Shown here: positions 2,611 through 55,093 of the stretch, in pieces
Layout: every line of letters starts with the position of its first letter
Numbering within the stretch: position 1 is the first letter of the stretch
Assembly (NCBI GenBank): GCA_902774075.1
Contig: CACYGT010000002.1
Span: 1 to 55,346 of the forward strand
DNA length: 55,346 nt
Direction: 5' to 3'
Origin: an uncultured Bacteroidales bacterium
GTDB taxonomy: Bacteria; Bacteroidota; Bacteroidia; Bacteroidales; Paludibacteraceae
Made by a program: the position numbers and the translations under genes
Notes under the pieces: model-generated
What the model was told of the DNA's origin: nothing
Database searches by the model: none
The model's input: only the letters and a program-made list of their open reading frames with translations

Positions 2611-5011
2611 GACCGAATATACTGAGCAGTAAGCCGAGGATAACAAAAGCCATAGACCACTTGTCCAAGCGCAAGGCATCAGGTACAAATTCCATTCGTA
2701 TCGTATGTTCGCCGGCAGGGATAACTGCTGCACGGAGGACGTAGTTCGCACGACCTATCGGTTTTTCTTCACCATCAACATACAGATGCCAACCTTCGGG
2801 ATAGTAAATCTCGGAGAAGATGGCTATGCGGTCGGTTGCACAGTTAGAGGTGTATGTTAGTTTATTGGGTTGATATTCCGTGAGTGTGATCTCGTCGCCT
2901 TCACTCGGGCGTGAAGAGCAAGTCAGCACATCTCGGAACTGCTCGTCAGCAACCGCCGTTGTGTGCAGGTCGAGCGTATTGAGCGCCGCACTCTCGTCAT
3001 CAGGCGTCGGTACGAACTGCACTTCGTTCACAAACCAAGCATTCCCCATCGCTTCGGTATTTGGATAGACGCCTTGTCGTGTGACGATATACTTCGTGTT
3101 AAGCATGTTCAGTACGCTCCAATTCATCTTAGATATATGCTCGTCGATGAGGTCTTGGTAGCGGCGTAACTTGACGGCACTGTATCCACCGATGGATTTG
3201 AGACGATAACTGGTGCGTGCATCGTTAAAGGTGTTGGTGTTGAGGTTCAGTACACGGTAGTCCAGGCTCTTGTCTTGGAGTATTTCTTCCTCCCAAGGCT
3301 GTATCTTGAAGTACGCGTCATTGTCCTTCGCTTTGACAAAGTTATCGTTGTTGAAGAAACGCTTGTCCACAGGAACCATATCAATCAATATTATCATCGC
3401 TAAACCGATGAAAAATATTGAATTGTAAATTGGAGATTGGAGATTGGAAATTTTGATTTTCCATGCGTACCAATAGGTAAGGGCGAAGCCAAGTGCTACG
3501 AAGAGCAGTGAACGCCAAGCGTCTGCTTTTGCCATGGCTACGCGTTGATCTAGGATGGCGTTGTAGAGCCAGTTAGGCACTTGGTTCTTCCACTGCGCGT
3601 CATAAGAGCTCGTCATGTCAATAGAACCGGCAAAGAGTGCTGCAAGCAGACATATACCTGCTGTTACTCCACCGGCGATGAAGAGGTTCGTGCGTAGTTT
3701 CTTCCACTCTATCTCGCCATTGACGATACGTTGTAAGCCCATAAAACCGAGCAAAGGCATCGTGACTTCTGCGACCACAAGGATAGACTCGACAGCACGG
3801 AACTTATTGTACATCGGGAAATAATTGAAGAAGAGTTCTGTGAGTCCCATCAAGTTACGTCCCCACGCCAGGAAGATGGACATGAGTGTCGCGAACAGCA
3901 GCGCCCATTTGTACGGTCCCGGAACGATGAGTAGTCCCAGAACGAATAGGAAACATACGACAGCTCCAACATATACGGCACCGGAGGTAAACATCTTCTC
4001 GCCGCGATAGGTAGGTGCATGGGAGCAAAACTGCTCTGCGTCGCGTTTTGCCACACCTTGTTTGCGCATAGCCTTGCTCAGCTCTGAATCTTTGCCTAAA
4101 TCATATCCGCTTGCGCCGCCTTCCCAGTTCGGGATAAGAAGTGTCATGGTCTCATCGATACCATAGCTCCAATCGGTAGCATACTTGATATCCAATCCTT
4201 CAGCGGGCTTGTCTTGTGCTTGTTTGGTAAGTTCGCTATGTCCGCCGCGCATGGTCTCTTTAACGTACGATTGGTTCATGTTCAACCAACTGATACGTGT
4301 GCCGGCTATTATTCCCAGAGAGAGTGCAATGACAGCTATCGCAATACTGAGATCTTTCCATTGTTTCTCGATGCAATGTATAATGATCTCTGCAATAACC
4401 ATCACTCCTATCAGCATAAATACATAATAGGTCATCTGCGGGTGAAGCGCCAGGCAGCACATACCGAATAGGGTGATCAATGGAGCTCCAAGCCAGTATT
4501 TCTTTCGGAAAGTTGCATATACACCGCCAATGACAGGAGCCAAGAAACCGAGAGCAACTGCTTTCGTGACATGTCCGGCAGGGATGATGAGAAAGAAATA
4601 ACTGCTTAGACCTATCGCGAGGCCGCCAACAATACTGAGCCAGGGATTGACGCCGAAACAAACAAGCATCAAGAAGAACCCTAAGAAATAGGCAAAAATA
4701 ATACCCATTGTCTCGGGCAAACCCAGATGGAGAATGTTTCGTAGAGTATGGTTGGTAATCTCTCCGGATGGCATACTTCCTGTGATTTGGTAAGTAGGCA
4801 TACCACCAAACAAAGAGTTCGTCCAGAAACTGGTTTCTCCGGTCTTTTGGTGGTACTCAAGTACTTCATTGGCATCTCCTTTCCAGTTCATGGTGTCACC
4901 TGCTTGCAGCACTTTTCCTTCCAGCATGGGGCTACAATACAACACGGCAAAGCCGATAAATACTACTAATGCCACCAGATACGGGGCGATTTTCTTCCAA
5001 TCTATTTTCAT
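2573..5011 (-). CDS. YfhO-family polytopic membrane protein
   Basis: This 812-residue protein has many hydrophobic segments across the first two thirds, a large extracytoplasmic domain, and a last membrane helix near residues 785-805. The N-terminal region has the family-typical block after the first helix (AGDTMNWKGDANEV, then GGMPTYQ). The C-terminal region has GWHLYVDGEEKPI and PAGEHTIRMEFVP, seen in YfhO proteins. YfhO is required for lipoteichoic acid glycosylation in some Firmicutes; in Bacteroidota it is assumed to move or add sugars at the outer face of the inner membrane. It is the last gene of the long minus-strand run, 6 bases after the acyltransferase. It contains an in-frame 7-bp-period array at 3421-3462. 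Confidence 0.85.
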   Translation of the reverse strand: MKIDWKKIAPYLVALVVFIGFAVLYCSPMLEGKVLQAGDTMNWKGDANEVLEYHQKTGETSFWTNSLFGGMPTYQITGSMPSGEITNHTLRNILHLGLPETMGIIFAYFLGFFLMLVCFGVNPWLSIVGGLAIGLSSYFFLIIPAGHVTKAVALGFLAPVIGGVYATFRKKYWLGAPLITLFGMCCLALHPQMTYYVFMLIGVMVIAEIIIHCIEKQWKDLSIAIAVIALSLGIIAGTRISWLNMNQSYVKETMRGGHSELTKQAQDKPAEGLDIKYATDWSYGIDETMTLLIPNWEGGASGYDLGKDSELSKAMRKQGVAKRDAEQFCSHAPTYRGEKMFTSGAVYVGAVVCFLFVLGLLIVPGPYKWALLFATLMSIFLAWGRNLMGLTELFFNYFPMYNKFRAVESILVVAEVTMPLLGFMGLQRIVNGEIEWKKLRTNLFIAGGVTAGICLLAALFAGSIDMTSSYDAQWKNQVPNWLYNAILDQRVAMAKADAWRSLLFVALGFALTYWYAWKIKISNLQSPIYNSIFFIGLAMIILIDMVPVDKRFFNNDNFVKAKDNDAYFKIQPWEEEILQDKSLDYRVLNLNTNTFNDARTSYRLKSIGGYSAVKLRRYQDLIDEHISKMNWSVLNMLNTKYIVTRQGVYPNTEAMGNAWFVNEVQFVPTPDDESAALNTLDLHTTAVADEQFRDVLTCSSRPSEGDEITLTEYQPNKLTYTSNCATDRIAIFSEIYYPEGWHLYVDGEEKPIGRANYVLRAAVIPAGEHTIRMEFVPDALRLDKWSMAFVILGLLLSIFGLTWPLWRQWIKK
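3421..3462. repeat. 7-bp-period degenerate tandem array inside yfhO-like gene
   Basis: Six consecutive heptamers on the plus strand; the middle ones are AATTGGA, GATTGGA and GATTGGA, flanked by AATTGTA and AATTTTG. On the coding strand it encodes a hydrophilic stretch (KIKISNLQSPIYNS) between two membrane segments, so it sits in a loop where extra residues would be tolerated. Confidence 0.75.
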
Positions 5012-5017
5012 ATTGTA

Positions 5018-11619: not shown

Positions 11620-12318
11620 CTATAAATTTTCAATTTTTACCTTGCGCTTTGCGTGAACGGGCATTAACCATCCAAGGTTGATGCTCAGGTCCATGGGGTT
11701 AGCCATCGAGAAATGGTCGATGGGTTGCGTGCCGTATATACCGCCGAAGGAGAAGTCAAAACGTGCTTCGAGGTGGTAGATGCCGGCTTTGCGAGTAATG
11801 AAATAGACACCTGTCCCTGCAGCAAGTCCCCAGTCGAACTTATGGTCTATCGGTTGGTACTCCACAGATCCGGCTCCGTTGACATAGTCCCCGGCACTCT
11901 CGTCCTTGACGCAATAACCGATCTGCGGACCGAGGTTAAAGAACCACCGGCATTTCTTGCTTCCGAAATTGAGATGCATCAGGATAGGCAGTTCTATGTA
12001 ATGTAAACTGCGGGCGTAGTACGCATTGGAACTCTTCTCCGCCCAACCGCGATGCACGTAGTTCAACTCCATCTGGAAATGGCAGTATTTATGGCCTGCA
12101 TAACGGAAGACAAGACCACCGTTCCCGCCCAACACGCAGGCATTCGTGATCGGACTCATGTTCGCTACCGTAGGCGTGAACATAACCGTGCTTGCACTCA
12201 CTCCGCCGTGAAAACCGAGGTAAAACTCCGGTTCCCGATAGCGAGGTTGCGCCTTGGCTTGAATATAGAACAAGGAGCAAAGAGCCAAGACTATAATATG
12301 TAATTTTTCAATCTTCAA
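11620..12318 (-). CDS. PorT-family outer-membrane beta-barrel protein
   Basis: The 232-residue protein has a signal peptide ending IQAKAQ and alternating amphipathic strands typical of the small Bacteroidota barrel family (PorT / outer membrane beta-barrel domain), for example EFYLGFHGGVSAS, HFQMELNYVHRGW, HYIELPILMHLNF and FFNLGPQIGY. Some family members act in type IX secretion, but most have no assigned role. The start is uncertain: the frame opens at TTG 12316-12318, which lies inside a 7-bp-period array and is the only start that keeps the full signal peptide. It follows the LysM gene by 10 bases. Confidence 0.75.
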   Translation of the reverse strand: MKIEKLHIIVLALCSLFYIQAKAQPRYREPEFYLGFHGGVSASTVMFTPTVANMSPITNACVLGGNGGLVFRYAGHKYCHFQMELNYVHRGWAEKSSNAYYARSLHYIELPILMHLNFGSKKCRWFFNLGPQIGYCVKDESAGDYVNGAGSVEYQPIDHKFDWGLAAGTGVYFITRKAGIYHLEARFDFSFGGIYGTQPIDHFSMANPMDLSINLGWLMPVHAKRKVKIENL

Positions 12319-12338
12319 TTTTCACTTTTCATTTTTCA
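12304..12338. repeat. 7-bp-period array across a stop/start junction
   Basis: Five heptamers on the plus strand: TTTTTCA, ATCTTCA, ATTTTCA, CTTTTCA, TTTTTCA. The array contains the stop of the upstream LysM gene (12329-12331) and the TTG start of the PorT-like gene (12316-12318). A change of one unit would move the spacing of these signals by 7 bases. Confidence 0.8.
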
Positions 12339-13669
12339 ATGACTCTTACGCATTCGTTCTGCCATCCTCCGTTTTCTATTTGTTGCCAGCGTACGTCGGA
12401 CTGAAGGCCTTTGGCTTCTTTCTCGCCGTTGATCCAGGCGACCAATGCCCGCATCAGGTCGTAGCCCAGCAAGTCATATCGCGGCGCCTCACTCACGTGC
12501 TCGCCCACAAAGAACTTCTGCCAAAGCGCGTCATACGCTTCGCGGTCCGTCTCGGCGGTGAACATAGAGGTATAGACCTGCGGAAGGGTGATACCCTCTT
12601 TCTGCCAGGAGTACTGACTCAAGAGACGAATCCGATAGCCTTGGTCTTGCAGTTTCTGCAGGTGGGGTAACAGAAGACGTATCTGTTGGTACCGGTCACT
12701 ATGGAAGTGGATCAGGTTCTCTTTGGCGGTGTCCAAGGCCAGACCCACCGAGTCTTTCAAAAGGTCCGCTACCGGTAAATCACGGTAGAAAATACCATTC
12801 TTGCTCATCTGCTTGCGCAGCGTGCGGATGGACGAAGAGATATCTGCATCCTTGACCTCGATGGCTACGCAGTTGAGGTCCTGCGACTTGATCCACTCGC
12901 AGAGGCTGTCTGCCTCTTGGATATCCGTGGAGTTGAACTGCAGCAGGTTCGTACGCCCGCTTAAGGTCGCGTCGTCGCAGAACGGCAACAATAAGGGCAC
13001 TTGGTGTAACTCGCACCACTCGGCCATACGCGCTATCTGTATCGGATAGACGAGACCCAGCACACCGCGTACGCTGTCCAGTTCGGTCGTATCGCACAGT
13101 TCGGCAATACGACGCTCACTACGCTCCGTGTCATAGACGCGCAGTAAGTAGCGCAGGCTGTCGTTCTGCAGGTCATGCAGCGCCAGCAATGCGCCTTGGT
13201 AGAACTCCATCATGCGCTCGGCACTGCCGCTACGCTTGGTCTGATGGCTCTCAAAAGGCAACATCAGCGCCAACTCCATCACCGGTCGCGGGTCGGGGAT
13301 AATAGTGTCCACTATGGTCGTGTCTGCCAAGAGCGTATCTACGGCGAGCGTATCCGTCTCTTTGGGCTGTTCGATAGGCACCTCGATCTTCTCTTTCTTC
13401 TCACCGATCTTACGTCCCGTCGGAATCAAGATGGTCTCACCGTAGTGCAGACCGCGCTCGCGGAGCTGCGGGTTAAAACGAATGATCTCGCTCTGCGGCA
13501 CATCAAAATTGACGCCGATACGGTAGAGGCCGATACTCTTCTCCACCTGATAGCGATAGACCTCCTCGCCGTTGATGGTGTCCATCGGGTAGTTCAATAA
13601 CTCCTGTGCCTTTGCCTGAACAAAGAGCAAAGACAAAAGACAAAAGACTATAAATGTTTTACTTTTCAT
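12329..13669 (-). CDS. LysM domain protein with periplasmic-binding-protein-like C-terminus
   Basis: The 446-residue protein has a signal peptide ending FVQAKAQ and a LysM-like domain around residues 36-88 (YRYQVEKSIGLYRIGVNF, then a GETILIP ending). A proline- and acid-rich linker follows (about 90-125). The rest looks like a receptor-type periplasmic binding fold (LALMLPFESHQTKRSGSAERMMEFYQGALLAL, VRGVLGLVYP). Such LysM-receptor fusions are common in Bacteroidales and probably bind peptidoglycan; the ligand of the second part is unknown. It overlaps the GldG-like gene by 11 bases. Its signal peptide is encoded partly by a 7-bp-period array. Confidence 0.75.
   Translation of the reverse strand: MKSKTFIVFCLLSLLFVQAKAQELLNYPMDTINGEEVYRYQVEKSIGLYRIGVNFDVPQSEIIRFNPQLRERGLHYGETILIPTGRKIGEKKEKIEVPIEQPKETDTLAVDTLLADTTIVDTIIPDPRPVMELALMLPFESHQTKRSGSAERMMEFYQGALLALHDLQNDSLRYLLRVYDTERSERRIAELCDTTELDSVRGVLGLVYPIQIARMAEWCELHQVPLLLPFCDDATLSGRTNLLQFNSTDIQEADSLCEWIKSQDLNCVAIEVKDADISSSIRTLRKQMSKNGIFYRDLPVADLLKDSVGLALDTAKENLIHFHSDRYQQIRLLLPHLQKLQDQGYRIRLLSQYSWQKEGITLPQVYTSMFTAETDREAYDALWQKFFVGEHVSEAPRYDLLGYDLMRALVAWINGEKEAKGLQSDVRWQQIENGGWQNECVRVIEK
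13622..13649. repeat. 7-bp-period array in a signal-peptide region
   Basis: Four heptamers on the plus strand: AAAGAGC, AAAGACA, AAAGACA, AAAGACT. On the coding (minus) strand they encode part of the hydrophobic signal peptide of the LysM protein (residues about 7-16). Confidence 0.7.
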
Positions 13670-15302
13670 ATTTTCGTTTACGAATAATATACACTATTCC
13701 TCCGATTAGTGCCAGGATAGCCACCGGACTGATGGTACTGATGGCTTGCACTTTGGTGCGCTGTTCGTGTGCACGATGATCATTTAACAACCGTAGGGTC
13801 ACACTCTTCTCGCGCAGACTGATCAGTCCTTCGCTGTCGGTCAGCCACAAGATGGCATTGACCACAAAATCGCGATTGGAGAACTGCACGCCGCTATAAC
13901 GGTCATATCCCATCGGCAGCGGTTGCCCTTTCTGTAGTTCGTTGACGATCACACTCCCGCTACCGATCACTACTTGCCGCGTCTTCACGCCGCTCTTGCG
14001 TATCGGCTCGTCGGTCTCGACGCCTTCAGGCACCATCCGGTGCGCAAAAGCACTGCTGAACGCGCCTTCCATCGACACCGCTACCGGCACGTACTGATAT
14101 TTGAACGTCGTCACGTCGGGATTGAGATCATTAAGGTCCACCTCTCCCGGTGTCGCTGTCACACGGCTGGCGGTACTGGTAGCTAACAACACCCGTTTCT
14201 CAATCCCGTCTTCGCCGCCCACCGCGTCTATCGGACTGACGAAGGTACTCATCACTTGTCCCATGTTTCGGGTGATAGGCGATCCTTGGCTCGTCAGCAA
14301 CAGAGGTGCGTACGTCCACGGCATCGGTTGCAGGTTCGGCTGTTGCGGGTCGGTGCTCACATCCACGGGTATAGGCAGACACTGCAAATCTTGCACCAAA
14401 GCAGGATTGACCCGTACGCCATAACGGAAGAGTTGTTCGGTTAGTCCGAGATCCAGCGCTACAATAGGCGTGAAGCCTTCTTGCTGCAGTACCTGTTCGC
14501 TGAAACGCACGCCGTCCATCGCCCACAACACAGCACCGCCGCGCATGATATACTGGTCGATCACAAAGCGCTCCGCTTCGCTGAACGCTGTCTGCGGACT
14601 GGCGATGATGACAGCCTTGTATCCGTCGAGTTCGTGTCCGGTAACCTGTAACCCGTCATCCGTAACACCTATCGAGCCTCTATCGACCTGAAAATACTTG
14701 CTCAGTGCCGTCATCAGGTCGTAGGTATGCGCCTCGTCGGGTTCGTTATGTCCCTCGAGGATGGCTACGCGCGGTGTCTCAGTCTCTTGCAGCAGGTGCA
14801 GCGCCTCCATGAAGGCGAACTCCAACTGCTCGATGCTGGCGTTGAGGTTCTCCTCTCCGCTGAGGCCTCTGGTGTTCTTAAGTAGCGTCACCACAGCCCG
14901 CCGACCCTTGTATGACATCAGTGCGTAGGGATAAACAGTCGTCTGCGCAGTCTTACCGTTCTGTTCCCGCTCATGGATCACAATCGGTCGCAGACCGAGA
15001 GAATCTCCTTTCACCTTTAACCTTTCACCTTTCACCTTTACGACGTCTCCATACACTCCCATCTCCTCGATGGTCTCTTCTGTCGCTTTCTTGAGGCGTC
15101 GGAAGCCGGCATTAAGGTCGCCGTCCAGCAGTACGGTCACTTCTATCGGCGCGTCGGTCTGCTTGAGCAGGTTCTTTGATGCCTCGCTCAGACTATACCG
15201 CTTGTCGTCCGTCAGATCCCAGCGCAACGTCGCTGCCTGAAGACTGAGCGTACAGAGTAGAGAATACAGCGTACAGATTAATATGGCGCGAGTATATCTC
15301 AC
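13659..15302 (-). CDS. GldG-like ABC-transporter auxiliary protein
   Basis: This 547-residue protein has an N-terminal signal or anchor segment, then LRWDLTDDKRYSLSEASKNLL (residues 25-45), the hallmark of GldG and the ABC_transp_aux family. It continues with the extracytoplasmic domain (VAILEGHNEPDEAHTYDLM, GGAVLWAMDGV) and ends in one membrane helix (AILALIGGIVYIIRKRK). GldG partners the permease GldF in gliding and type IX-linked ABC systems, but no gldF or gldA is nearby. It starts with GTG overlapping the PpiC stop by 4 bases. Two 7-bp-period arrays lie in it, one coding for the signal segment and one for VKVKGERLKVKGD. Confidence 0.78.
   Translation of the reverse strand: MRYTRAILICTLYSLLCTLSLQAATLRWDLTDDKRYSLSEASKNLLKQTDAPIEVTVLLDGDLNAGFRRLKKATEETIEEMGVYGDVVKVKGERLKVKGDSLGLRPIVIHEREQNGKTAQTTVYPYALMSYKGRRAVVTLLKNTRGLSGEENLNASIEQLEFAFMEALHLLQETETPRVAILEGHNEPDEAHTYDLMTALSKYFQVDRGSIGVTDDGLQVTGHELDGYKAVIIASPQTAFSEAERFVIDQYIMRGGAVLWAMDGVRFSEQVLQQEGFTPIVALDLGLTEQLFRYGVRVNPALVQDLQCLPIPVDVSTDPQQPNLQPMPWTYAPLLLTSQGSPITRNMGQVMSTFVSPIDAVGGEDGIEKRVLLATSTASRVTATPGEVDLNDLNPDVTTFKYQYVPVAVSMEGAFSSAFAHRMVPEGVETDEPIRKSGVKTRQVVIGSGSVIVNELQKGQPLPMGYDRYSGVQFSNRDFVVNAILWLTDSEGLISLREKSVTLRLLNDHRAHEQRTKVQAISTISPVAILALIGGIVYIIRKRKYEK
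15008..15042. repeat. 7-bp-period array inside the gldG-like gene
   Basis: Five heptamers on the plus strand: three copies of CTTTCAC, with CTTTAAC second and CTTTACG last. The encoded protein shows the matching 7-residue period (KVKGERL, KVKGDSL). This is one of the cleanest arrays in the window. Confidence 0.88.
15248..15282. repeat. 7-bp-period array in the gldG-like signal segment
   Basis: Five heptamers on the plus strand: GCGTACA, GAGTAGA, GAATACA, GCGTACA, GATTAAT. They code for the hydrophobic N-terminal segment (ICTLYSLLCTLS) of the GldG-like protein. Confidence 0.7.
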
Positions 15303-17100: not shown

Positions 17101-17121
17101 TCAATTTTCCATTTTTCCATT
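17101..17121. repeat. Short 7-bp-period array between ppiC-like and M6 genes
   Basis: Three heptamers on the plus strand: TCAATTT, TCCATTT, TTCCATT. They fill half of the 43-base gap upstream of the PpiC-like gene and touch the end of the M6 protease gene. Confidence 0.5.
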
Positions 17122-20100
17122 TACTGTATCCTTACACCGGTGATGCTATACACAGCCTCTCCGCGGATGATAACTATCTGTCCGTTCATCAGCGCCTTCA
17201 CTGCCGCCGGCTCTACGCTTGTCTCCTCAATGTCCGTCAGCGCACCGCAGTCCACAGTAGTGACGTAGGAGGTGATACTACTATTCTGTTGCTTGTATAA
17301 ATAGATTGAATTCGATGAAGAAGTCTTAGCCGCAAATTCATGAGTGCTGTTGTTATTTTTGGTGTATATGAAATATACCATATACTGACCGGCATTATCA
17401 CTCGCCTCAAACGACCAATTACCATTAGATACACTGACATTGAAAGCATAGCTGTTGCTTTGTAATCCAAGATCGTAGAAATTGCCCGATTTGTACAAAT
17501 ATGCATATTGGTTCACCGCCTCATTGTAGAACGACACGGTATTGTTGTTGCGGGTAATATTCCAAATGATCGTTTCGGCAGGATCACTGATAATATCCGA
17601 GGAAGGAGATACAGAAACAGTGCCGAGATAGTAGTCGCTAAATACGGAGTTCTTCATTGCCTTCGTGCCATTTCCGGCAACTACATAATTACCCGTTGTC
17701 AGTTCATCTAATGTCGTGATCTTACTATAGTCATTACTCAATTCACCTGTTTTTATATGACGGAATACTGCATAGTAGTCTTGATCTTTCGTTACAGTAA
17801 AGTCGGTGACAAGGGTCGGTTTCGTTTCTGTTTCTGTAGTAAGGGCACTTGTTGTCCAACCGATAAACGTATAGTACACGCAAAGCTTATCCGGGTCTTC
17901 CGGAATTTCCGGAGTGCCTCCTTTTTCTATTATCTGTTCTTCGCCCTCCTGTACACCGTTGTTGAAGAACCGAATCGTATAGGTCGGTATCTCTCCGCAC
18001 GTAGGTTCAGTAGTATAATAGGTCGTGCTGCTTGCACCGCTGCCTACTTCCCAAGTGAACGTAATTGCGTCCATATAGAGCGCGCCACTAGCAGAGCGAA
18101 CACCTATATAGGTATAGTCACCGCTTATCGTCAATTCGGTACTTGTGCCGTAAACAATAGAGCCCAGAGAAGTACCTGCATTTGAACCATACAAATCCGA
18201 GGCAGCCGAATATGCTGTGTTCTTACCGTAGATGTTTAATGTGCGACCGGAAGTTGTATTACTATTCCAAGTAACAACTACTTTCTTGATGGTGCCGCCT
18301 GATGTTGTGGTAACAATACCTGAGTTGTTATTATTTGAACGCAACTGAATGGCATCATTACCTCCTGCACTATTACCGGCATAAAAGGCATCAGAATTCG
18401 CAGTTTTTCCACTCCAGCTATCATAATTTGTTCCGCTTACACCTGTTGTAGCGCGCGTCAATTGATCCTCTACGGTCTCACTACTACCACCTTCGCCTTC
18501 TTCGGTGCGGCTAAATACTGCGTAATAGTCTTGATCCTTTGTGGCAGTGAAGTTTGTGACATAAGAGGGCGCTACTGTATTGTCCTCTGCCAAAGTAGTG
18601 GTGTACCAGCCAACGAACGTATACTCCTCACAAGCGGTTGGATCGGAAGTTGGCGGCGTTGCAGCCTGACCTTGTTTGACGTTCTGCGAACTCAGCAGGG
18701 TAGTGTTGTTATAGAACCGAATCGCGTAAGTCGGCAGAGCGTTGACGGTGATCTGGTACGTAGCGGATTTGTCTTCGTAGGTGACTGTAACGTCCTGTGC
18801 TCCGATTTGGTTCATATCCGGCGTGCTTACACTCGTTGGTGTTACGGTTTTGCTATCGCAACCCTCATAGCTCGCCGTTACTACTAATCCCTCGTACGTA
18901 AACGCCTCGCCTTCCGTGAACACCTTCTTGACATTGTTGGTGTTTATCGTAATACTTGTCAACGGTCCTTCGCACGGAGGATTACAAGTCGTGGTATAAT
19001 CGGTGTACGAACTACCGCTGGACTTGCGATACAATTGCGGCAGAAGCATACTCGATGAAAGCGCTGATGTATAGGTAGTGAAACGAGGATTTGTGCTGTT
19101 ATAAAGCATTCTTCCGTAAGAACTTGTTCCGTTCTGAATAGTAGCATCTCCGTCGGAAATACTAATACTCCATGTGGTTGTTCCACTGTCCCAAGCTAAT
19201 TTTTTAACAGCTGTTGCTCCAAGCAAGCCATCCGAAGTGCTCAATGTCCAAGAGCCGGAAGTGCCTCCTAAGGTAAACTCCAAAGTTCCTTCACCAACCG
19301 AACTAATCTCATCGCCGCTGAATGTCGAAGCAACGGAGCCTAATATCTGGCTGCTTATTGCGCCGGCGGTTGCATTATTTGCTTTATTTGCCAAGACCAG
19401 TTTGTCACCGGCTTTCAATGAAGAAGCATCTGTGACTAATGTCCAATTTCCTGCTCCACCTCCCGTTCCCGGTGTCGCAAACACGGCATAGAACGTCGTG
19501 GCTGTCGACACAGCATCTCCGTTCTTTACGAACGTAGGAGCCTCGGTCTCGCTCTCATAGGTAGCGTTCGCGCACCAGCCGACAAATACCTTTTCGGTAC
19601 ATGCGTCAGGCTGACCTTCCGGCAGTACAACACTTCCGGCACTAGTCGTTGTTGTGAACTCACTCCCATTTGCCATCCATGTAATTTGGAACGTTGCTTT
19701 ACCTTCCACCATAATCTCCACATCGTCCGTCACTTTCTCGATATGGAACTCATTCGTACTCTCGTTATACGTAAAACCTATACCATAGGTCAGTTTGACG
19801 CCTCCCATCTCAACGTCCCAACAACTTGCGTCCGCCAAGGTGTAACCAGATTCAGGCGTTATAGTCAAACTCAATGTACTATTGATTGCAATAACACCGT
19901 CTTCGGGATAAGTACAATGTTCTCCATACAGCGTATAATCGCACTCCGTCTTCGTTTGTCCGCCGTTATACTTAAACGAAATCACGCCGTCACTCTCGCT
20001 GATTTGTGTCAGGGCGCAACCGGTCTTCGGTGTGTAACTCTTCACATTGCTTGTTCCCGGGAACGGGTCAGATCCATAGCCATAGTTGCTCGTTTTGCCG

Positions 20101-24990: not shown

Positions 24991-25033
24991 TTTTTAAGAA
25001 AAAATCTCAAAATTTCTTCCCTCTTCCCTCGGA

Positions 25034-36149: not shown

Positions 36150-37895
36150 TTATTTTTTTGTTCTTAATTCTTCATTCTTCATTGTCAGCAAGTCTTCGGC
36201 GCGGCGGAGGGCAAAGTGGATGTTCGCGCATATATTATGCGGATCCATCTGTTGCTCGATACCGCCCTGCATCAGTTGTTTGTGAACATGATCGTTCACA
36301 CCTGAGAGGATGATGGTAATGCCTTCGTTATGAGAACGTTGGATAAGCATCGATAAGTTATGCATAGCCGTCGCATCCACGAACGGCACCTTACGCATCC
36401 GAATGATACGTATCGGATATTTCTCGCCGGAGACGTGCAACATGATCTCGTCAAAACGGTTGGCGATACCGAAGAAATACGGGCCATCGATCTCATATAC
36501 TTCGACACCCTCGGGAATCGTGAGGTGGTCGAGATTAGACTGCACGTCGGTATCTTCGTTGGGGTCTATCTCGTTATGAAGCGTACGGATATGTGTTTGC
36601 TCGTTGGTGCGCATGAGGAAGAGTACCATCGCCAGCAACAGACCCACTTCGATTGCGACCGTAAGGTCGAAAATAACGGTGAGTAGGAAAGTGACGAGCA
36701 GTACCCAGAAGTCGCGGTTTCGGTGTTTGAAAAGGCCCACGATGGTCTTCCAACCCGACATGGAGTAAGCCACCATGATCAGTACTGCTGCGAGGCATGA
36801 CATCGGTATTAGACCGACGAGTTGACCTAAAAATAGCAGCACGAGCAGCAGTACCACTGCATGTATGATACCTGCCACAGGCGTACGTCCGCCGTTATTA
36901 ATATTGGTCATCGTACGTGCGATAGCGCCTGTGGCGGGGATACCACCGAAGAAAGGAACGACAACGTTCGCTACGCCTTGTGCAATCAATTCGGTATTGG
37001 AGTTATGCCTGTCGCCTATTACACCATCCGCTACCATGGCAGAGAGGAGGCTCTCGATAGCGCCTAACATCGCGATCGTGAACGCGGATGGGAAAAGTTT
37101 CTGCACCATCGTAAAGAACGATTCGCCTTCTGCCAGTTCCATATTCGGCATATGCGGAGCCGGGATGCCATGCGGCAGTTCATAGAGATCACCGATCGTT
37201 TGCACCGTTGCTATACCCCAAGAAGCGGGTGCGTATGTCTTAAGCACCCACACCGCAAAAGTCGCGAAGATGATGGCGGCCAATGAACCCGGGATACGCT
37301 TGGTGATCTTCGGCGTGAAGATACAAATAAACAGCGAGAAAGCACCTATACCCAGCGCCCACCAATTGACGTTAAAATGCGCAAAATAGTATATCCATTT
37401 ATCCACAAAGTTCGCCGGTACATCGGTTAGTCCGAGCCCGAAGAAATCGTTCATTTGAGTCGAGAAAATGGTCAGCGCAATACCGGCTGTGAAACCTACG
37501 ATCACAGGATAAGGCACGAACTTGATGACTGATCCAAAACGCGCAAAGCCCATGATAATGAGCAAGATACCTGCCATAATGGTAGCCAGCGTCAGGCCAG
37601 CGAGACCGTACTGCTGAATGATACCGTAGATGATGACGATGAAGGCACCGGTCGGTCCGCCTATCTGCACTTTACTACCTCCGAAAAGGGAGATCAACAG
37701 ACCCGCTATGATAGCAGTCACCAGACCCTCCGTCGGACCCACTCCCGACGATATACCGAAAGCGATAGCAAGAGGGATAGCTACGATACCGACGATGATA
37801 CCTGCGAGCGCATCTTGACCGAACTGCGCACGACTGTAGTTGCGCAGCGTGGTGAATAACTTAGGATAAAAAACGTCTTTAATGCTATATTGCAT
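36150..37895 (-). CDS. SulP-family anion transporter with STAS domain
   Basis: The 581-residue protein has the SulP signature region early ([27 protein letters not shown]), a polytopic core of about 12-14 helices to residue 425, and a C-terminal STAS domain (about 460-560, [33 protein letters not shown]). Sulfate, bicarbonate or other anions are possible substrates; none can be chosen from sequence. A promoter of the shared type lies just upstream at 37917-37948. The last codons ([11 protein letters not shown]) are made by a 7-bp array. Confidence 0.9.
36161..36188. repeat. 7-bp-period array at the 3' end of the sulP gene
   Basis: Heptamers on the plus strand: TTCTTAA, TTCTTCA, TTCTTCA, TTGTCAG. 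They encode the charged C-terminal tail of the SulP protein. Confidence 0.72.
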
Positions 37896-38818: not shown

Positions 38819-39742
38819 ATGTTAGGAATCATTATTAATCCCAAATCGGGCAAGAGTTACTTCCGTGCGCAGCGCATTTATCTGTGGAAGTTGCTTCGTA
38901 AACGTCATGAACCTTTTGCGTATCGTGTGACCAAATATGCCGGTCACGCCATCGAGTTAGCGCGCGAGTTAGTGGAGAAAGGATACAATGAGATTCTTAT
39001 CCTTGGCGGCGACGGTACGTTGTCGGAAGCCATCAACGGTATCATGCGTTCGACCCTCACCCCTGAGCAGCGCGCGCAGATACAGGTGGGCCTTATGCCG
39101 CGTGGTACGGGTAATGACTGGGCGCGGTTTTGGAACTTGACCAAGAAGCACAAAGAGAGTCTGCGCCGTTTCTTTGAGGGCGAAGGACATCCGATAGATA
39201 TCGGCTGTGTCACTTATTGGCGCAATAACATCGAGCATCACCGTTATTTCATTAACTCAGTCGGCTTTGGAGTGGACCCGCTCTGTTGCAAGAAAGCGGA
39301 GGCCTTGAAGTACTATATCGGTTCACACCACGTCAATTACTTGTTCGGCCTCATTGCCGCGATCGTGCAACATAAAGCACAGCACATGGTACTGACGGTG
39401 GACGGCAAGCAAGCGGTGGACGACCGACTCTTCACAATGAATATCGGTAACGGTCCTTTCTCTGGCGGCGGTATCCGTCAGAACCCCGAGGCAGACCCGC
39501 AAGATGGTGTCTTTCATACGATGTTTATTAAGAAACCGACCTTCAAACAGATTATTGCGGCACTTCCCAAACTCTATAACGGTCGCCTAACCGAGTTGCC
39601 GTTCGTTTATCCTATCGTGGGTAAAGAGATAACTATTTCGTACAAAAAACATATCCTGATAGAGGCAGATGGTATATTGGAGAATTTCATCGGACCGTGT
39701 AAGGTGACTTGTCTGCATAACGCCCTTCAGTTTAGATGCTAA
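38819..39742 (+). CDS. Diacylglycerol/lipid kinase family protein (DagK/YegS-like)
   Basis: These enzymes phosphorylate diacylglycerol or related lipids. The 307-residue protein opens with GIIINPKSGKSYF, then has the nucleotide-binding LGGDGTLSEAINGIM (near residues 62-76) and PRGTGNDWARF, both classic. A C-terminal beta domain includes FSGGGIRQNPEADPQDG. Start ATG 38819 is placed after the -7 box; earlier in-frame codons would lie upstream of transcription. In many relatives rpmB-rpmG-DUF4295 is followed by ftsY; here this gene takes that place. It overlaps the next gene by 7 bases. Confidence 0.9.
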   Translation: MLGIIINPKSGKSYFRAQRIYLWKLLRKRHEPFAYRVTKYAGHAIELARELVEKGYNEILILGGDGTLSEAINGIMRSTLTPEQRAQIQVGLMPRGTGNDWARFWNLTKKHKESLRRFFEGEGHPIDIGCVTYWRNNIEHHRYFINSVGFGVDPLCCKKAEALKYYIGSHHVNYLFGLIAAIVQHKAQHMVLTVDGKQAVDDRLFTMNIGNGPFSGGGIRQNPEADPQDGVFHTMFIKKPTFKQIIAALPKLYNGRLTELPFVYPIVGKEITISYKKHILIEADGILENFIGPCKVTCLHNALQFRC

Positions 39743-40650
39743 AACAGCAAGGTTCAAATAGGATTTATACGCGGGAGACGGACGAGACGGGTCGAAGTGT
39801 CATCCGCGTACAGGGAACGAACAAGGACGAGAATCGTGCGTTTATCTATATGGCGCGGCATTTTCGTTCGCTGGGACTACCAGTTCCGGAAGTCTATTGG
39901 GTCAGTGAGGATGAGATGAGTTATACGCAAGAGGACTTAGGCGACACGATCCTCTTCGACCATCTGGACAATACCTTATTATTAGAGCGCGCAATGCGCG
40001 CGCTCGCGCATGTACAAATAGAAGGCGCGAAGGACTTCAATTGGACGATCTGTTTTCCGGTACCCGCAATGGATGAGAGGGCAATACGGTGGGACCTCAA
40101 TTATTTCAAGTACTGCTTCCTGAAGGGCACGAAGATCGAGTTCTCCGAGCCAAAACTGGAGGACGAGTTTGATAAGATCGTACAAGTCATCCTTGCGCAG
40201 CCTGCTGATACGTTCCTGTATCGTGACTTCCAGAGCCGTAACGTCATGATCAAAGATGAACAGCCGTATTTCATTGACTTCCAGGGCGGCCGAAGAGGCC
40301 CTACGCAGTACGATGTAGCTTCTTTCCTCTGGCAAGCAAAAGCCAACTTTACACCCGAACTGAGAGAGCAGTTGATAGCAGCCTATCTGGACGAGATGGA
40401 AAAACTGAGTAATACTTACCATTTTCCATTTTCCATTTTCCATTGGAAGAAAGCTCTGCCGCATTTTGTGTTGCTTCGGACGCTGCAAGTCTTAGGTGCT
40501 TACGGTTATAGAGGCTATTTTGAGCGCAAGCCGCACTTCTTGGAGTCGATACCGCTTGCCTTGCGAAACTTGAACGATATCCTTGTCCCATTACAAAACG
40601 AATATCCTTATTTGTATGCTCTTAGTAACGATTTACTCCTTCTCGTTTAA
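39736..40650 (+). CDS. AmgK-like sugar kinase (aminoglycoside phosphotransferase fold)
   Basis: AmgK phosphorylates MurNAc/GlcNAc at the anomeric carbon in cell-wall sugar salvage. The 304-residue protein shows the kinase motifs: SYTQEDLGD, catalytic FLYRDFQSRNVMI (aspartate near residue 159), and metal-binding FIDFQGGRRGPTQYDVASFLW. Homology alone does not fix the substrate, but the murU-like gene two positions downstream supports it. An in-frame 7-bp array (CCATTTT units) encodes FPFSIFHWK in the C-terminal helical lobe. It overlaps the RapZ-like gene by 35 bases. Confidence 0.82.
   Translation: MLKQQGSNRIYTRETDETGRSVIRVQGTNKDENRAFIYMARHFRSLGLPVPEVYWVSEDEMSYTQEDLGDTILFDHLDNTLLLERAMRALAHVQIEGAKDFNWTICFPVPAMDERAIRWDLNYFKYCFLKGTKIEFSEPKLEDEFDKIVQVILAQPADTFLYRDFQSRNVMIKDEQPYFIDFQGGRRGPTQYDVASFLWQAKANFTPELREQLIAAYLDEMEKLSNTYHFPFSIFHWKKALPHFVLLRTLQVLGAYGYRGYFERKPHFLESIPLALRNLNDILVPLQNEYPYLYALSNDLLLLV
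40419..40446. repeat. 7-bp-period array inside the amgK-like gene
   Basis: Three perfect CCATTTT units and a fourth, CCATTGG. It is the least diverged array in the window. Confidence 0.9.
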
Positions 40651-41017
40651 GCGAGGTGTGCCGGTGGATCAGTCGGGTAACGGAGGCGGATACGTCTTCG
40701 ACTGCCGTGGTACCCATAACCCCGGTAAGTACGATGAATACAAGTCCTTGACGGGCTTGGACGAACCGGTGATACACTTTCTGGAGAAGGACGGCGAGAT
40801 ACTGACATTCTTGGAGTCTGTGTATGCTTTGGTGGACCACCATGTGGCGCGGTTTATTGAGCGGGATTTCGAGCATTTACAAGTTTCTTTTGGCTGCACA
40901 GGCGGCCAACATCGTTCTGTCTATTGTGCCGAACAGTTGTCCAAGCATCTCCAAGAGAAATACGATGTGCGTATTCATCTGGTTCATCGGGAACGAGGCA
41001 TAGAGAAACAGTTATGA
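40616..41017 (+). CDS. Free-standing RapZ C-terminal-domain protein
   Basis: In gamma-proteobacteria RapZ senses GlcN6P through its C-terminal domain and directs decay of the small RNA GlmZ. This 133-residue protein is that domain alone: TIYSFSFKRGVP, VFDCRGTHNPG, LTGLDEPVIHFLE, and VSFGCTGGQHRSVYCAEQL, the most conserved block. No P-loop kinase domain is present. ATG 40616 gives the correct domain start; ATG 40583 would add 11 residues. It overlaps the neighbours by 35 and 4 bases, so the three are surely co-translated. Its role here, perhaps sensing an amino-sugar phosphate, is inference. Confidence 0.85.
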   Translation: MLLVTIYSFSFKRGVPVDQSGNGGGYVFDCRGTHNPGKYDEYKSLTGLDEPVIHFLEKDGEILTFLESVYALVDHHVARFIERDFEHLQVSFGCTGGQHRSVYCAEQLSKHLQEKYDVRIHLVHRERGIEKQL

Positions 41018-41730
41018 AAGCGATGATTTTTGCAGCAGGTTTGGGTACACGCCTAAAACCCTTGACGGATACGATGCCAAAGGCACTTGTGCCGCTGGCC
41101 GGTAAGTCGTTGCTGCAATGGCAAGTAGAAAAACTGCGGGATGCAGGTATCACGGATATCATCGTTAACGTCCATCATTTTCCGGATATGATCATTGAAG
41201 CTGTGCGTGCGAACGAAGGGTGGGGTTGCAACATCGTCATCTCCGACGAGCGAGACCTGCTCCTTGATACCGGCGGAGGCCTCAGAAAAGCTCTTACACC
41301 GTACACCTTACGCCATACACCTATACTTGCTAGCAATGTGGATATCCTCTCCAATATAGACCTCAATGCCTTGATAGCCACGTATGAACAGACGGGTATC
41401 TCTCAACTCGTTGTTTCAGATCGCCAGACCCAGCGTTATCTTTGTTTTGACGAGCAGAATACGCTCTGTGGCTGGACAAATATCGCTACCGGTGAAATAA
41501 AAGGTCGTGACGGAAGACACCTCGCCTTTAGCGGCTTGCAGATACTAAGCCCGGAGGTGTTGGCCTTGTTGCAGCACTATCCGAAAGAGAAATTCTCCCT
41601 TATAGAATTCTATCTGCATTGTATGAATAAGGTGTCGTTACAAGCTTACGTCCCCGCCAACTATCGAATGATGGACGTGGGAAAAATCGACCAAATTGAC
41701 GAGGCCGAACGCTTTGCTGAAAGCCTGTAA
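41014..41730 (+). CDS. MurU-like sugar-1-phosphate nucleotidyltransferase
   Basis: The 238-residue protein has the nucleotidyltransferase opening MIFAAGLGTRLKPLTDTMPK, with G-x-G-T-R and P-K, LVPLAGKSLLQW, the metal-site aspartate in ASNVDILSN, and YRMMDVGKIDQ near the end. MurU makes UDP-MurNAc from MurNAc-1-phosphate, bypassing fosfomycin-sensitive MurA. With the AmgK-like kinase it would form a short salvage route; glucose- or mannose-type substrates remain possible. The start (ATGA) overlaps the RapZ-like stop. A 7-bp array at 41293-41327 encodes LTPYTLRHTPIL. Confidence 0.83.
   Translation: MKAMIFAAGLGTRLKPLTDTMPKALVPLAGKSLLQWQVEKLRDAGITDIIVNVHHFPDMIIEAVRANEGWGCNIVISDERDLLLDTGGGLRKALTPYTLRHTPILASNVDILSNIDLNALIATYEQTGISQLVVSDRQTQRYLCFDEQNTLCGWTNIATGEIKGRDGRHLAFSGLQILSPEVLALLQHYPKEKFSLIEFYLHCMNKVSLQAYVPANYRMMDVGKIDQIDEAERFAESL
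41293..41327. repeat. 7-bp-period array inside the murU-like gene
   Basis: Five heptamers: CTTACAC, CGTACAC, CTTACGC, CATACAC, CTATACT. Confidence 0.78.
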
Positions 41731-48890: not shown

Positions 48891-48928
48891 TTCGGTATCC
48901 CGTTATACCGGTATACCGTTATACCGAA
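48891..48928. repeat. 8-bp-period palindromic array before kbl
   Basis: This is a 38-base element bounded by TTCGG and CCGAA. Inside are four octamers (CGGTATCC, CGTTATAC, CGGTATAC, CGTTATAC). It is nearly its own reverse complement (three mismatching pairs around ACCGGT) and can form a hairpin, flanked by A runs on both sides. The same 38-base design recurs before dnaK. Confidence 0.88.
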
Positions 48929-48936
48929 AAAAATCT

Positions 48937-50130
48937 ATGTACAACGATTTTCAGAAACACCTGCAGGCGACCTTGCAAGAGATCAAGGAAGCAGGCTTAT
49001 ATAAGAACGAGCGTGTGATCATCACGCCGCAGAGTTCGGGTATCCAAGTGGAAGGCGGACAAGAAGTGATTAACTTCTGTGCCAACAACTACCTCGGCCT
49101 CGCCGATAACAAAGAGCTCATCGAGGCAGCCAAGGCCCGCATGGACAAGCGCGGCTACGGTATGGCTTCGGTACGTTTCATCTGCGGTACGCAGGACACC
49201 CACAAAGAACTCGAGCGCGTCATTTCTGACTTCTTTGGTACCGAAGATACCATCCTTTATGCCGCTTGTTTTGATGCGAATGGTGGCCTCTTTGAACCGC
49301 TGCTGACCGAAGAGGATGCGATCATCTCTGATGCTCTCAACCATGCGTCGATCATCGATGGCGTACGTCTCTGTAAAGCAGTACGTTACCGCTATGCGAA
49401 CGGCGACATGGCGGACCTCGAAGAGAAACTCAAAGAGGCTCAGGCACAGCGCTTCCGTATCATCGCGACCGACGGTGTCTTCTCCATGGACGGAAATGTA
49501 TGTCCGCTGGATAAGATCTACGAATTGGCGAAGAAATACAACGCCCTCGTCATGGTGGATGAGTCGCACTCTGCCGGCGTAGTAGGTAAGACCGGACATG
49601 GTGTCACGGAACTCTATAACCTCCGCGGAAAAGTAGAAATTATCACCGGTACGTTGGGTAAAGCTTTCGGCGGCTCGGTAGGTGGTTTCACCACGGGACG
49701 CAAAGAGATCATAGATCTCCTTCGTCAGCGTTCGCGTCCGTACCTCTTCTCGAACTCTATCCCCCCGATGATTGCAGCTGCGGGTATCAAAACATTCGAG
49801 ATCCTCACTCGCTCGAACGAACTGCAAGACCGCTTGCACGAGAACACCGCTTACTTCGTAGAGCGCATGAAAGCGGCGGGCTTCGATATCAAGCCGACTC
49901 AGTCGGCTATCTGCGCAGTCATGCTTTATGACGCCAAACTCAGTCAAGTCTTCGCGGCAGAGCTGCAGAAAGAAGGTATCTATGTCACGGGCTTCTATTA
50001 TCCTGTTGTGCCGAAGGGCCAAGCGCGTATCCGCGTACAGGTTTCTGCAGCCCACACACGCGAGCAACTCGACAAATGTATAGCAGCCTTTACGAAGATT
50101 GGCACGAAACTTGCTGTATTGAAATCATAA
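48937..50130 (+). CDS. kbl: Glycine C-acetyltransferase (2-amino-3-ketobutyrate CoA ligase)
   Basis: Kbl splits 2-amino-3-oxobutyrate with CoA to glycine and acetyl-CoA. The 397-residue PLP enzyme has INFCANNYLGLADN, RFICGTQDTHKELE, DALNHASIIDGVRL, VMVDESHSAGVVG, and the PLP lysine K242 in TGTLGKAFGG, all intact. It is followed by tdh, its metabolic partner. Its stop lies inside a 7-bp array that bridges to tdh. Upstream, only the octamer element separates it from gdhA, and no TAnnTTTG promoter is visible. Confidence 0.96.
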   Translation: MYNDFQKHLQATLQEIKEAGLYKNERVIITPQSSGIQVEGGQEVINFCANNYLGLADNKELIEAAKARMDKRGYGMASVRFICGTQDTHKELERVISDFFGTEDTILYAACFDANGGLFEPLLTEEDAIISDALNHASIIDGVRLCKAVRYRYANGDMADLEEKLKEAQAQRFRIIATDGVFSMDGNVCPLDKIYELAKKYNALVMVDESHSAGVVGKTGHGVTELYNLRGKVEIITGTLGKAFGGSVGGFTTGRKEIIDLLRQRSRPYLFSNSIPPMIAAAGIKTFEILTRSNELQDRLHENTAYFVERMKAAGFDIKPTQSAICAVMLYDAKLSQVFAAELQKEGIYVTGFYYPVVPKGQARIRVQVSAAHTREQLDKCIAAFTKIGTKLAVLKS

Positions 50131-50155
50131 ATCATAAATTTGAAATCATAAATGA
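50121..50155. repeat. 7-bp-period array across the kbl-tdh junction
   Basis: Five heptamers: GAAATCA, TAAATCA, TAAATTT, GAAATCA, TAAATGA. The array contains the kbl stop (TAA 50128-50130) and the tdh start (ATG 50152-50154). Confidence 0.88.
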
Positions 50156-54124: not shown

Positions 54125-55058
54125 TTCCCATAGAAGCGGCTTTGTCAACATCGTGGGAAACCCGAATGTGGGCAAATCAACCCTTATGAATGCCTTGGTG
54201 GGGGAGCGCCTTTCGATCATTACGTCGAAGGCGCAAACCACCCGCCATCGTATCATGGGTATCGTCAACGGCGAGGACTTCCAGATGGTCTATTCCGACA
54301 CTCCGGGAGTCCTCTCGCCGAACTACCAGCTCCAGAAACAGATGTTGGAGTTCTCCCGTTCGGCCCTCGTGGACGCTGATGTGCTGCTCTATGTGACCGA
54401 AGTGCAAGACAACCCTGAGCGGAATGCCGATTTCCTGGATAAGGTTAAGAAGATGGCCGCCTCGGGTACGCGCGTGTTCCTTATAATAAATAAGATAGAT
54501 CTTACGACGCAAGATACCCTCGAGCGTCTCGTTGAGTTCTGGCATGCCCAACTGCCCGAAGCCGAGATCTTCCCGATCTCCGCGCAAGAGAAGTTCGGCG
54601 TCGCTCAACTCTTCGATGCCATCAAGGACGCCCTGCCTGTCGGACCTCCTTTCTTCCCAAAAGACCAACTCACCGACAAGTCCGAACGATTCTTTGTCAA
54701 CGAGATCATTCGCGAGAAGATTCTCCTTAATTATGACAAGGAGATCCCGTACTCCGTCGAAGTCGAAGTGGAATCCTTCATTGATCATTCGGAAGAAAAA
54801 ATGACCAATGACAAATCACCAATGTCCAATAGAAATCTCGTTGAGATTTCTGCTGTCATCTACTGCGAACGCGAGTCCCAGAAAGGAATTATCATCGGCA
54901 AAGCCGGCTCTGCCCTCAAGAGAGTAGGGAGCCAGGCGCGCAAAGATATCGAGGAGTTCCTTCAGAAGCAAGTCTTCCTCCAACTCTTTGTCAAAGTGGA
55001 CCGCGATTGGCGTTCCAATGTCGGTCGTCTCAAGCACTACGGCTACGATTTGTCATAG
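54108..55058 (+). CDS. era: GTPase Era
   Basis: Era binds 16S rRNA and helps 30S assembly. It has G1 GNPNVGKST, switch region SKAQTTRHRIMGI, G3 DTPG, G4 NKIDL, G5-like ISAQ, then the KH domain with GIIIGKAGSALKRVG and FLQLFVKVDRDWRSN. Start: ATG 54108 is chosen; ATG 54099 would add three residues, and both overlap the protease gene. A 7-bp array inserts about 12 residues (KMTNDKSPMSNR) between the helical linker and the KH domain, where other Era proteins have a short turn. Confidence 0.95.
   Translation: MTQSCNSHRSGFVNIVGNPNVGKSTLMNALVGERLSIITSKAQTTRHRIMGIVNGEDFQMVYSDTPGVLSPNYQLQKQMLEFSRSALVDADVLLYVTEVQDNPERNADFLDKVKKMAASGTRVFLIINKIDLTTQDTLERLVEFWHAQLPEAEIFPISAQEKFGVAQLFDAIKDALPVGPPFFPKDQLTDKSERFFVNEIIREKILLNYDKEIPYSVEVEVESFIDHSEEKMTNDKSPMSNRNLVEISAVIYCERESQKGIIIGKAGSALKRVGSQARKDIEEFLQKQVFLQLFVKVDRDWRSNVGRLKHYGYDLS
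54802..54836. repeat. 7-bp-period array inside era
   Basis: Five heptamers: TGACCAA, TGACAAA, TCACCAA, TGTCCAA, TAGAAAT. It is in frame and nearly the same unit family as at the mnmA start. Confidence 0.9.
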
Positions 55059-55093
55059 CCCGTAACCCGTAACCGGTAACCCATAACCCCTAA
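55059..55093. repeat. 7-bp-period array directly after era
   Basis: Five heptamers starting on the base after the era stop: CCCGTAA, CCCGTAA, CCGGTAA, CCCATAA, CCCCTAA. It ends where the terminator stem begins. Confidence 0.93.

Follow-up and report, generated by a model that had tools for sequence, protein, structure and literature searches.

The window analyzed here is a stretch of 55,346 nucleotides from contig CACYGT010000002.1 of an uncultured Bacteroidales bacterium of the family Paludibacteraceae (assembly GCA_902774075.1). The elements in question are short tandem arrays of degenerate 7-bp units, or heptamer arrays, scattered through its genes and the gaps between them (Table 1). The array-bearing genes include era, SpoU and SulP, and an array also lies at the junction before mnmA. 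Phase-variation microsatellites are linked to surface genes and switch by losing or gaining units. A preliminary description had listed fifteen such stretches. An independent lag-7 scan (match +1, mismatch −1.14, x-drop 6) confirmed thirteen of them; the one at 16568 was not periodic at 7, and the one at 17101 had a period of 8. Tandem Repeats Finder (TRF), run on the window at a score of 30, reported period 7 for 12 of the 13 confirmed places, the exception being 15248. In what follows, L numbers designate sequence stretches or loci and G numbers genomes. The nearest loci belonged to Paludibacteraceae/Bacteroidales assemblies from rumen and gut.

At a lag-7 score of at least 9.5 the window contained 16 segments; its dinucleotide-shuffled versions, 60 in all, had 0.23 on average and never more than 2. 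Seven exact lag-7 runs were 10 or longer, where 50 shuffles predicted 0.02. The scan was extended to 20 further stretches (L009-L028, 368.7 kb) of the source genome, a 1,797,085-base assembly of 95 contigs that is 86% complete, so that the sample covered 424 kb of 1,797 kb (24%). At a score of at least 10, and after one of the 123 segments, a run of N, was dropped, the sample held 281 lag-7 arrays per Mb (278 in another tally) compared with 4 per Mb after shuffling; tandem 7-nt units were thus above chance, as is required of heptanucleotide simple sequence repeats (SSRs). The same excess ran across the 20 further stretches. Genes were called with a simple caller of our own (coding fraction 0.89), and the start positions are uncertain. 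Within the called coding sequences of the sample there were 55 lag-7 segments, of which within-gene codon-order shuffling left 0.4 (maximum 2, 10 rounds); a codon effect was therefore excluded as the cause. Some other periods in the 424-kb sample were raised, though less so (per Mb, with shuffled values in parentheses): 8, 54 (6); 9, 61 (2); and 11, 38 (6). The remaining ones were 5, 2 (4); 6, 19 (5); 10, 14 (4); and 13, 7 (6), and the harmonics of 7 stood at 210 for period 14 and 144 for period 21. Most arrays spanned 20-60 bp and 3-8 near-copies, with a median of 4.7 units, and only 6.5% were perfect. The heptamer arrays are a real feature of this DNA.

Table 1. Heptamer arrays and other short-period repeats of the window (scores are lag-7 scores).
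Repeat and units	Position	Strand	Setting	Score, source and remarks
Heptamer array AATTGGA/GATTGGA	3414-3452		Inside YfhO-type gene (2573-5011, −)	19.2; gene by Pfam
Weak heptamer array GAGCAAA	12261-12290		Upstream of called start (12183) of OMP beta-barrel gene (−), longest open reading frame (ORF) to 12318	10.2; Pfam; adjoins 12294-12338 array
Heptamer array TCAATTT/TCACTTT	12294-12338		Extends into 3′ end of gene 12329-13669 (−)	20.9
Heptamer array GACAAAA	13618-13648		Near 5′ end of gene 12329-13669 (−)	17.6
Weak heptamer array CCGGTAA/CCTGTAA/CCCGTCA	14638-14663		In ABC_transp_aux/DUF7088 gene 13659-15302 (−)	10.4; Pfam
Heptamer array, sense units GGTGAAA GGTGAAA GGTTAAA GGTGAAA	15004-15039	−	In ABC_transp_aux/DUF7088 gene 13659-15302	Contains the 23-mer mosaic present 5 times in the source genome
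Weak heptamer array AGCGTAC/AGAATAC	15247-15276		5′ end of longest ORF 13659-15302, upstream of called start 15227	10.2
Heptamer array AAATCAC/AAATATC	26713-26744		Variable loop of SpoU rRNA methylase (26274-26981, −)	
Heptamer array AATGACC/AATCACC/AATAACA	34484-34516	+	Stop/start junction before mnmA	19.6
Heptamer array TTCTTCA	36154-36183		3′ end of SulP sulfate permease gene (36150-37895, −)	
Heptamer array TTTCCAT	40416-40444	+	Loop after APH domain (39736-40650)	
Heptamer array TACACCG/TACACCT	41295-41321	+	In nucleotidyltransferase gene 41014-41730	
Heptamer array AAATCAT/AAATTTG	50122-50153	+	Fills junction 50130/50152	
Heptamer array AATGACC/AATCACC	54800-54830	+	Inside era	13.3; Pfam
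Heptamer array TAGCCCG TAACCCG TAACCGG	55056-55093	+	Begins on era stop codon	20.3
Period-8 stretch TTTTCCAT	17102-17122			TRF, lag scan; earlier listed as heptamer 17101
11-bp array ACCGACAGTCA	25033-25077		Outside called genes	TRF: 4.1 copies, 97% match
Period-8 array CGGTATCC	35383-35413		Inside mnmA	CGGTAT in common with CGGTATAC
Period-8 array CGGTATAC	48893-48926		Between called genes	CGGTAT in common with CGGTATCC

The arrays were not placed at random with respect to genes. Fully coding, gene-edge-straddling and intergenic positions accounted for 53, 45 and 20 of the 118 arrays of our own sample, where random placement would give 103.8, 4.2 and 10.0, and for 68, 49 and 35 of the 152 arrays in 30 relatives' loci (128.5, 5.6 and 17.9 expected). 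As had been noticed at the outset, arrays both span stop/start junctions and lie in frame in conserved genes. Codirectional gaps of 30-59 bp were favored: an array was present in 18 of 43 such gaps in our own sample and in 37 of 91 in the relatives' loci plus four congeners, and coverage by arrays in our own sample was 33% in these gaps and 1% in gaps of at least 120 bp. Period-11 arrays were mostly intergenic (29 of 33 in relatives, 9 of 15 in our own sample). In G002, several successive junctions within L141:3185-17349 carry TAATGGT-type arrays, one of them 90 bp long. An inverted partner array within 150 bp (at most 2 mismatches in 14) accompanied 19 of 321 arrays, against 3. Arrays facing their own reverse complements were seen at L076:8587-8676, L141:14149-14299 and L070:11129-11157, where they may form long hairpins or terminators.

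Heptamer-array density was high in most of the close relatives sampled, the exceptions being L064, L071, L072 and G031; among the 30 closest loci, L064 had no array and L071 and L072 had one each. In a first set of congeners, sampled over 25-200 kb each, the densities were 382, 370, 350, 270, 200, 183 and 160 per Mb in G035, G015, G030, G034, G036, G007 and G002, and 150, 119, 100, 75, 60, 50 and 0 per Mb in G017, G014, G027, G033, G011, G008 and G028. A later set gave 500 per Mb in G006, 300 in G003, 202 in G022, 75 in G005, 62 in G031, 61 in G024, and 50 each in G001, G009 and G016. There were no arrays in G020, G013, G004 and G012, the last three sampled over less than 10 kb each, and density was mixed among the farther congeners. 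Six other families of the order Bacteroidales yielded no heptamer arrays in 20-40 kb each. Elsewhere in the Bacteroidota, at least one array was present in 10 of 20 stretches (two of them short), five of those having been chosen for a word-search match. Arrays were found in 5 of the 15 unpicked stretches, with up to 5 in 20 kb (L202); this genus is therefore not alone in having them. The high density across most close relatives sampled supports an array-making process at work across a clade, much as the preliminary description had proposed for this lineage.

The words that make up the units are many but related. The 321 arrays had 118 distinct consensus words, and identity between consensus units was 0.0125 between genomes and 0.0270 within them, compared with 0.0014 for noncoding heptamers. 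When two near-duplicate loci were left out, 174 of 6,430 pairs within genomes and 508 of 41,019 between genomes shared a word. The excess within genomes is partly regional: word identity in the other genomes was 0.083 for arrays less than 2 kb apart but dropped to 0.035 between stretches, and in the source genome it showed no clear trend with distance. The best single motif found by expectation-maximization (EM) was the C-poor A-[ATG]-T-[TG]-[GA]-[AT]-[AGT], with a gain per array of 0.68 from 25 random starts; the controls, run with 10 starts each, reached 0.13-0.15 (letter-shuffled units) and 0.09-0.14 (noncoding heptamers). Coding and junction arrays were alike when oriented by the joint motif model. 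These comparisons showed that the units are drawn from a restricted, common lexicon. The AAATCAT and AAATTTG units that fill the junction at 50122 are also mixed at L015, L017, L023 and L027. The 23-mer mosaic GGTGAAAGGTTAAAGGTGAAAGG was present in 8 of the 61 genomes, with 5 copies in the source genome and 10 in G015 (backwards control, 0), and among the matches listed the flanks of most copies are unrelated. Long tandem arrays of GGTGAAA, the commonest word here, were seen in the distant Bacteroidota G140, G198, G159 and G223. G301, of another family, had 30 matches of the backwards control word, which indicates that elsewhere in the phylum different words have been amplified.

The step itself differs in one congener. 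In 200 kb of G011 the commonest period was 8 (31 arrays), followed by 11 (24 arrays) and 7 (12 arrays). Sixteen of the 31 octamer arrays, spread over 6 of 10 stretches, were within one change of ATTTGACA, a word found to the same tolerance in 1 of 22, 0 of 13 and 0 of 14 octamer arrays of three other genomes. The eleven-mer arrays of G011 showed no word sharing (2 of 267 pairs). Long octamer arrays lie at L219:789-888 and L221:12855-13097 of this genome, one of them consisting of 100 bp of perfect TGAGGAGA repeats.

In sister species the orthologous sites held arrays built from different units or with a different period, or lacked an array altogether. The diversification of arrays supposed at the outset is supported. 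At the junction before mnmA, among the matches listed, the units were AATCACC, AAAGTTG, AAGGTGA, CAAATNN or other words depending on the species, and in some species the gap was 0 or −4 with no array. Coding arrays, for their part, occupied hypervariable protein loops and tended to recur at the same place. When 31 internal coding arrays were compared with their orthologs, 124 of 436 comparisons (28.4%) showed an array at the corresponding position, against 604 of 8,720 (6.9%) at random places in the same genes; the 436 comparisons are not independent, since pairs were counted in both directions and all 31 arrays come from five genes (SpoU methylase, APH-type, nucleotidyltransferase, mnmA and Omp85). 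For the arrays of the window, the site was occupied in 6 of 14 orthologs in the SpoU methylase loop, in 4 of 7 in the loop after the APH domain and in 3 of 6 in the nucleotidyltransferase. In an AlphaFold model of the latter (7 sequences, mean predicted local distance difference test (pLDDT) score of 78), the array covers the last part of helix 89-97 plus the loop leading into strand 104-108, a block of lower confidence (pLDDT 65-83). Among 39 coding arrays with at least four orthologs, the loop was within 4 residues of the ortholog median in 28 and exceeded it by 5.5 to 24 residues in the other 11; the three longest excess loops are N-terminal, where start calls are uncertain. Between L065 and L068, which share 84.5% identity overall, loops have been replaced within near-identical flanks, and one L068 gene has AAATCAT in both of two loops. 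Judging from few cases, among them the closest pair described below, array turnover seems to take place on the scale of species rather than at hypermutable loci.

Interior deviations from the array consensus had a transition-to-transversion ratio of 243:439 (0.55). The reference comparison of L065 and L068 gave 732:338 at all well-aligned sites and 280:208 (1.35) at fourfold sites; the Fisher p value for the array deviations was 1.8e-13 against the fourfold sites and 0.0055 against a small noncoding set (33:28). The strictest subset of deviations (40:59) also differed from the fourfold sites (p 0.0027). Since the arrays lack the transition bias of the genome, the variety of their units does not look like plain decay by point mutation. 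Frame conservation was examined in 125 coding arrays, which contain 182 off-frame stops; the lack of in-frame stops is true by construction of the gene calls. In 36 of the 125, strict repetition of one unit would create an in-frame stop that the actual array avoids through a variant unit. Of the 40 codons concerned, 8 had TTA in place of TGA, and because TTA is also the commonest TGA variant of junction arrays (39, on either strand), it is not special to genes. A single 7-nt step would break the frame, so coding arrays would have to change by blocks of three units or by replacements of compatible length.

The explanation closest to earlier thinking is local replication slippage, in which a 7-nt step set by the polymerase makes perfect arrays that then decay by point mutation. 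Period 7 is indeed dominant and has harmonics at 14 and 21, the arrays are concentrated where selection is weak, and heptamer over-representation in many bacterial genomes, together with the slippage idea, is cited in excerpts of two papers (PMC4679880, PMC4692102). However, besides the missing transition bias and the scarcity of perfect arrays, between-genome unit agreement is 9 times that of noncoding heptamers, and single steps within genes would shift the frame. Length differences point the same way: of 125 pairs of orthologous junction gaps, which are not independent of one another, a fraction of 0.168 differed by multiples of 7, where 0.143 would be expected, so that unit-number variation between species formed no 7-step ladder. 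The polymerase or repair slippage with a 7-nt step that the preliminary description suggested is therefore not supported as the whole story, the units having a common lexicon without a point-mutation spectrum and one congener having a main period of 8. We regard slippage followed by decay as possible but doubtful.

In our view the best explanation, with an even chance of being correct, is that short blocks are copied, at a favored step, into DNA under weak constraint, after which selection keeps the reading frames open. A strand that has stalled or is under repair would find a new alignment, either between words that match in part and lie a fixed short distance from each other or with another array, and would copy a short heterogeneous block; repeated rounds would yield degenerate tandem units. 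Junctions would tolerate arrays of any length, whereas within genes only blocks that keep the frame open would survive, and the arrays would probably be neutral or selfish filler rather than signals. Two successive junctions of L150, 1,465 bp apart, hold identical array-bearing pieces of 46 and 34 bp with equal spacing. Between genomes, unit order was shared in 64 cases versus 27.3 (standard deviation (sd) 6.2), a count that includes orthologous arrays, which probably contribute to it.

Several results weigh against block copying. Within genomes, mosaic unit order was shared in 22 cases versus 15.4 after unit shuffling (sd 4.3, maximum 27); since this is not above the shuffle, the L150 pair is the one clear case of copying between loci, and long mosaic blocks copied within a genome were rejected on the same test. 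Word sharing between distant stretches of five genomes exceeded permutation only modestly (132 versus 106.7, sd 11.8), with 5 of 300 label permutations reaching the observed value, and without our own genome it was 33 versus 23.5 (sd 4.4, maximum 38). The closest pair, L059 and L065 (94.8% identity), showed no indel inside three arrays per 15-kb stretch. The difference between the strictest subset of deviations and the small noncoding set was not significant (p 0.1). Period-7 arrays cover only 5.2% of the intergenic bases of our own sample (3.6% in the other samples), so most free DNA is not array. Finally, no enzyme, active event or recombination step was seen in the sequences compared.

In a broader version, this genus would have a sequence-writing process whose step can be set and whose word depends on the species, and which replaces weakly constrained DNA, the surface loops of housekeeping proteins included. 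It would account for 7-nt words in one clade and one favored 8-nt word in another, and it would make short-block copying, not point mutation, the driver of loop and junction evolution. We hold it only tentatively, as rather improbable.

The arrays could instead be functional signals, such as sites for RNA- or DNA-binding regulators, terminators, or backup stops in all three frames where genes end. Among the 149 arrays of our own sample and the 30 relatives' loci that are not fully coding, the array edge fell at −3, −2 or −1 from the end of the stop codon in 36 array-gene pairs. In codirectional-junction arrays the C-poor strand was the sense strand in 95 of 144, with a stop within the sense unit in 94 of 144. 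The excess of inverted partner arrays and the translational role proposed for TAACTGA repeats in an excerpt of PMC4679880 are also in line with signals. Coding arrays, however, have the same lexicon without a strand preference (62 sense, 63 antisense), on which ground Rho or C-rich RNA signals were rejected, and one junction carries different words, periods or nothing across sister species. Stop codons were not enriched in the units either (0.72 and 0.27, versus 0.70 and 0.31 in letter-shuffled units). A signaling role is decidedly unlikely.

Still less probable, and in our judgment very unlikely, is a dedicated mobile element or enzyme (a reverse transcriptase, a telomerase-like enzyme or a transposase of the repetitive extragenic palindromic (REP) type) that writes or inserts the arrays. 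The species-specific word of G011, the presence of the 23-mer mosaic in several genomes with mostly unrelated flanks among the matches listed, and RVT_1 matches in the array-rich G002, G015 and G030 are in its favor. Nevertheless, RVT_1 had no match in the array-rich G000 (86% complete), G034 and G035, which led us to reject reverse-transcriptase-written repeats of the retron, diversity-generating retroelement or telomerase-like kind. Y1_Tnp matched G000 only weakly and did not match G002, G015 or G034, and a REP-type transposase was likewise rejected as the writer; no target duplications were noticed, although they were not searched for systematically. Two other candidates were discarded. Loss of mismatch repair was rejected on MutS_V alone, which was found in 60 of 61 genomes, G000 included. 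A Y-family polymerase (PF00817) looked absent from some array-poor genomes of the genus but was rejected as an explanation, as far as incompleteness and kinship of the genomes allow, given that G022 has no match and yet 202 arrays per Mb, and that several array-poor genomes have PF00817; the family had no match in G011, G028, G033, G005, G013, G022 and G031, some of which may be explained by incompleteness. Chance, codon bias or an assembly artifact has a negligible probability: the relatives are mostly metagenome assemblies, but the shuffle and codon-order controls refute the first two and the same pattern appears in assemblies from many projects and hosts.

With hundreds of arrays per Mb, differing words at orthologous sites and a congener that uses another step, the process can be tested by comparison, which can address the control of the step, the source of new words and the origin of new protein-loop sequence. 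Should block copying outpace point mutation at array sites, the models used for the evolution of loops and junctions in this group would need changing.

Cyanobacterial short tandemly repeated repetitive (STRR) elements are dispersed heptanucleotide tandem repeats; the sequence comparison with them covered the words GGGGACT and GGGGATT, which are absent here. Mrazek et al. are said to have found in 2007 that heptanucleotide SSRs are over-represented in prokaryotes. Our arrays resemble those SSRs in the over-represented 7-nt unit and the proposed polymerase-related slippage, an idea of slippage by a 7-nt polymerase footprint that excerpts of PMC4679880 and PMC4692102 credit to the same authors, but differ in being short and degenerate, at about 280 per Mb and with 118 words, in lying also in protein loops, and in that one congener's main period is 8.

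According to excerpts of MacGregor 2015 (PMC4679880), TAACTGA direct repeats occur in Beggiatoaceae, Cyanobacteria and five Bacteroidetes, with other heptamers in Bacteroidetes as well, which contradicts the preliminary remark that no description in Bacteroidota was known. The same excerpts state that these repeats differ mostly by 7-nt indels between two close Cyanothece strains and that in the BOGUAY genome they are mostly intergenic, just upstream of start codons. They are likewise heptamer direct repeats beside genes, but there one word is favored and here there are many, with a TAACTGA consensus in 0 of 321 arrays; instead of siting at start codons, 53 of our own 118 arrays are fully coding and array edges spike at stop codons. 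The excerpts of PMC4692102 describe heterogeneous arrays of GGGAATC and GGGGA(C/T)T in Xanthomonas and Nostoc, preferentially of four units, located between the same genes in related species with varying length and sequence, whose G-quadruplex words are under-represented on the coding strand of ORFs. Our junction arrays are similar in their heterogeneity and variation between the same genes, but GGGAATC/GGGGAYT is the consensus of 0 of 321, GGG or CCC occurs in 16 of 321, and coding arrays are common. Heptamer-derived satellites in bacteria are mentioned in an excerpt of PMC6749651. Rickettsia palindromic elements, as excerpted from PMC10969869, are repeats of about 150 bp in frame inside unrelated genes; ours share this position but have a median of 4.7 units and an inverted partner in only 19 of 321 cases.

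Among the open-access literature matches listed, no paper on such repeats in Paludibacteraceae was found, nor one that uses the phrase short-patch double illegitimate recombination. These excerpts did not describe a lexicon of many words, arrays located at orthologous sites within hypervariable loops, unit variation without transition bias or a shift of period between congeners. The general kind, that is, heptamer repeats, the slippage idea and cases in Bacteroidetes, is thus already in print, and the comparison suggests that the arrays described here are a clade-wide form of it that involves more than plain slippage.

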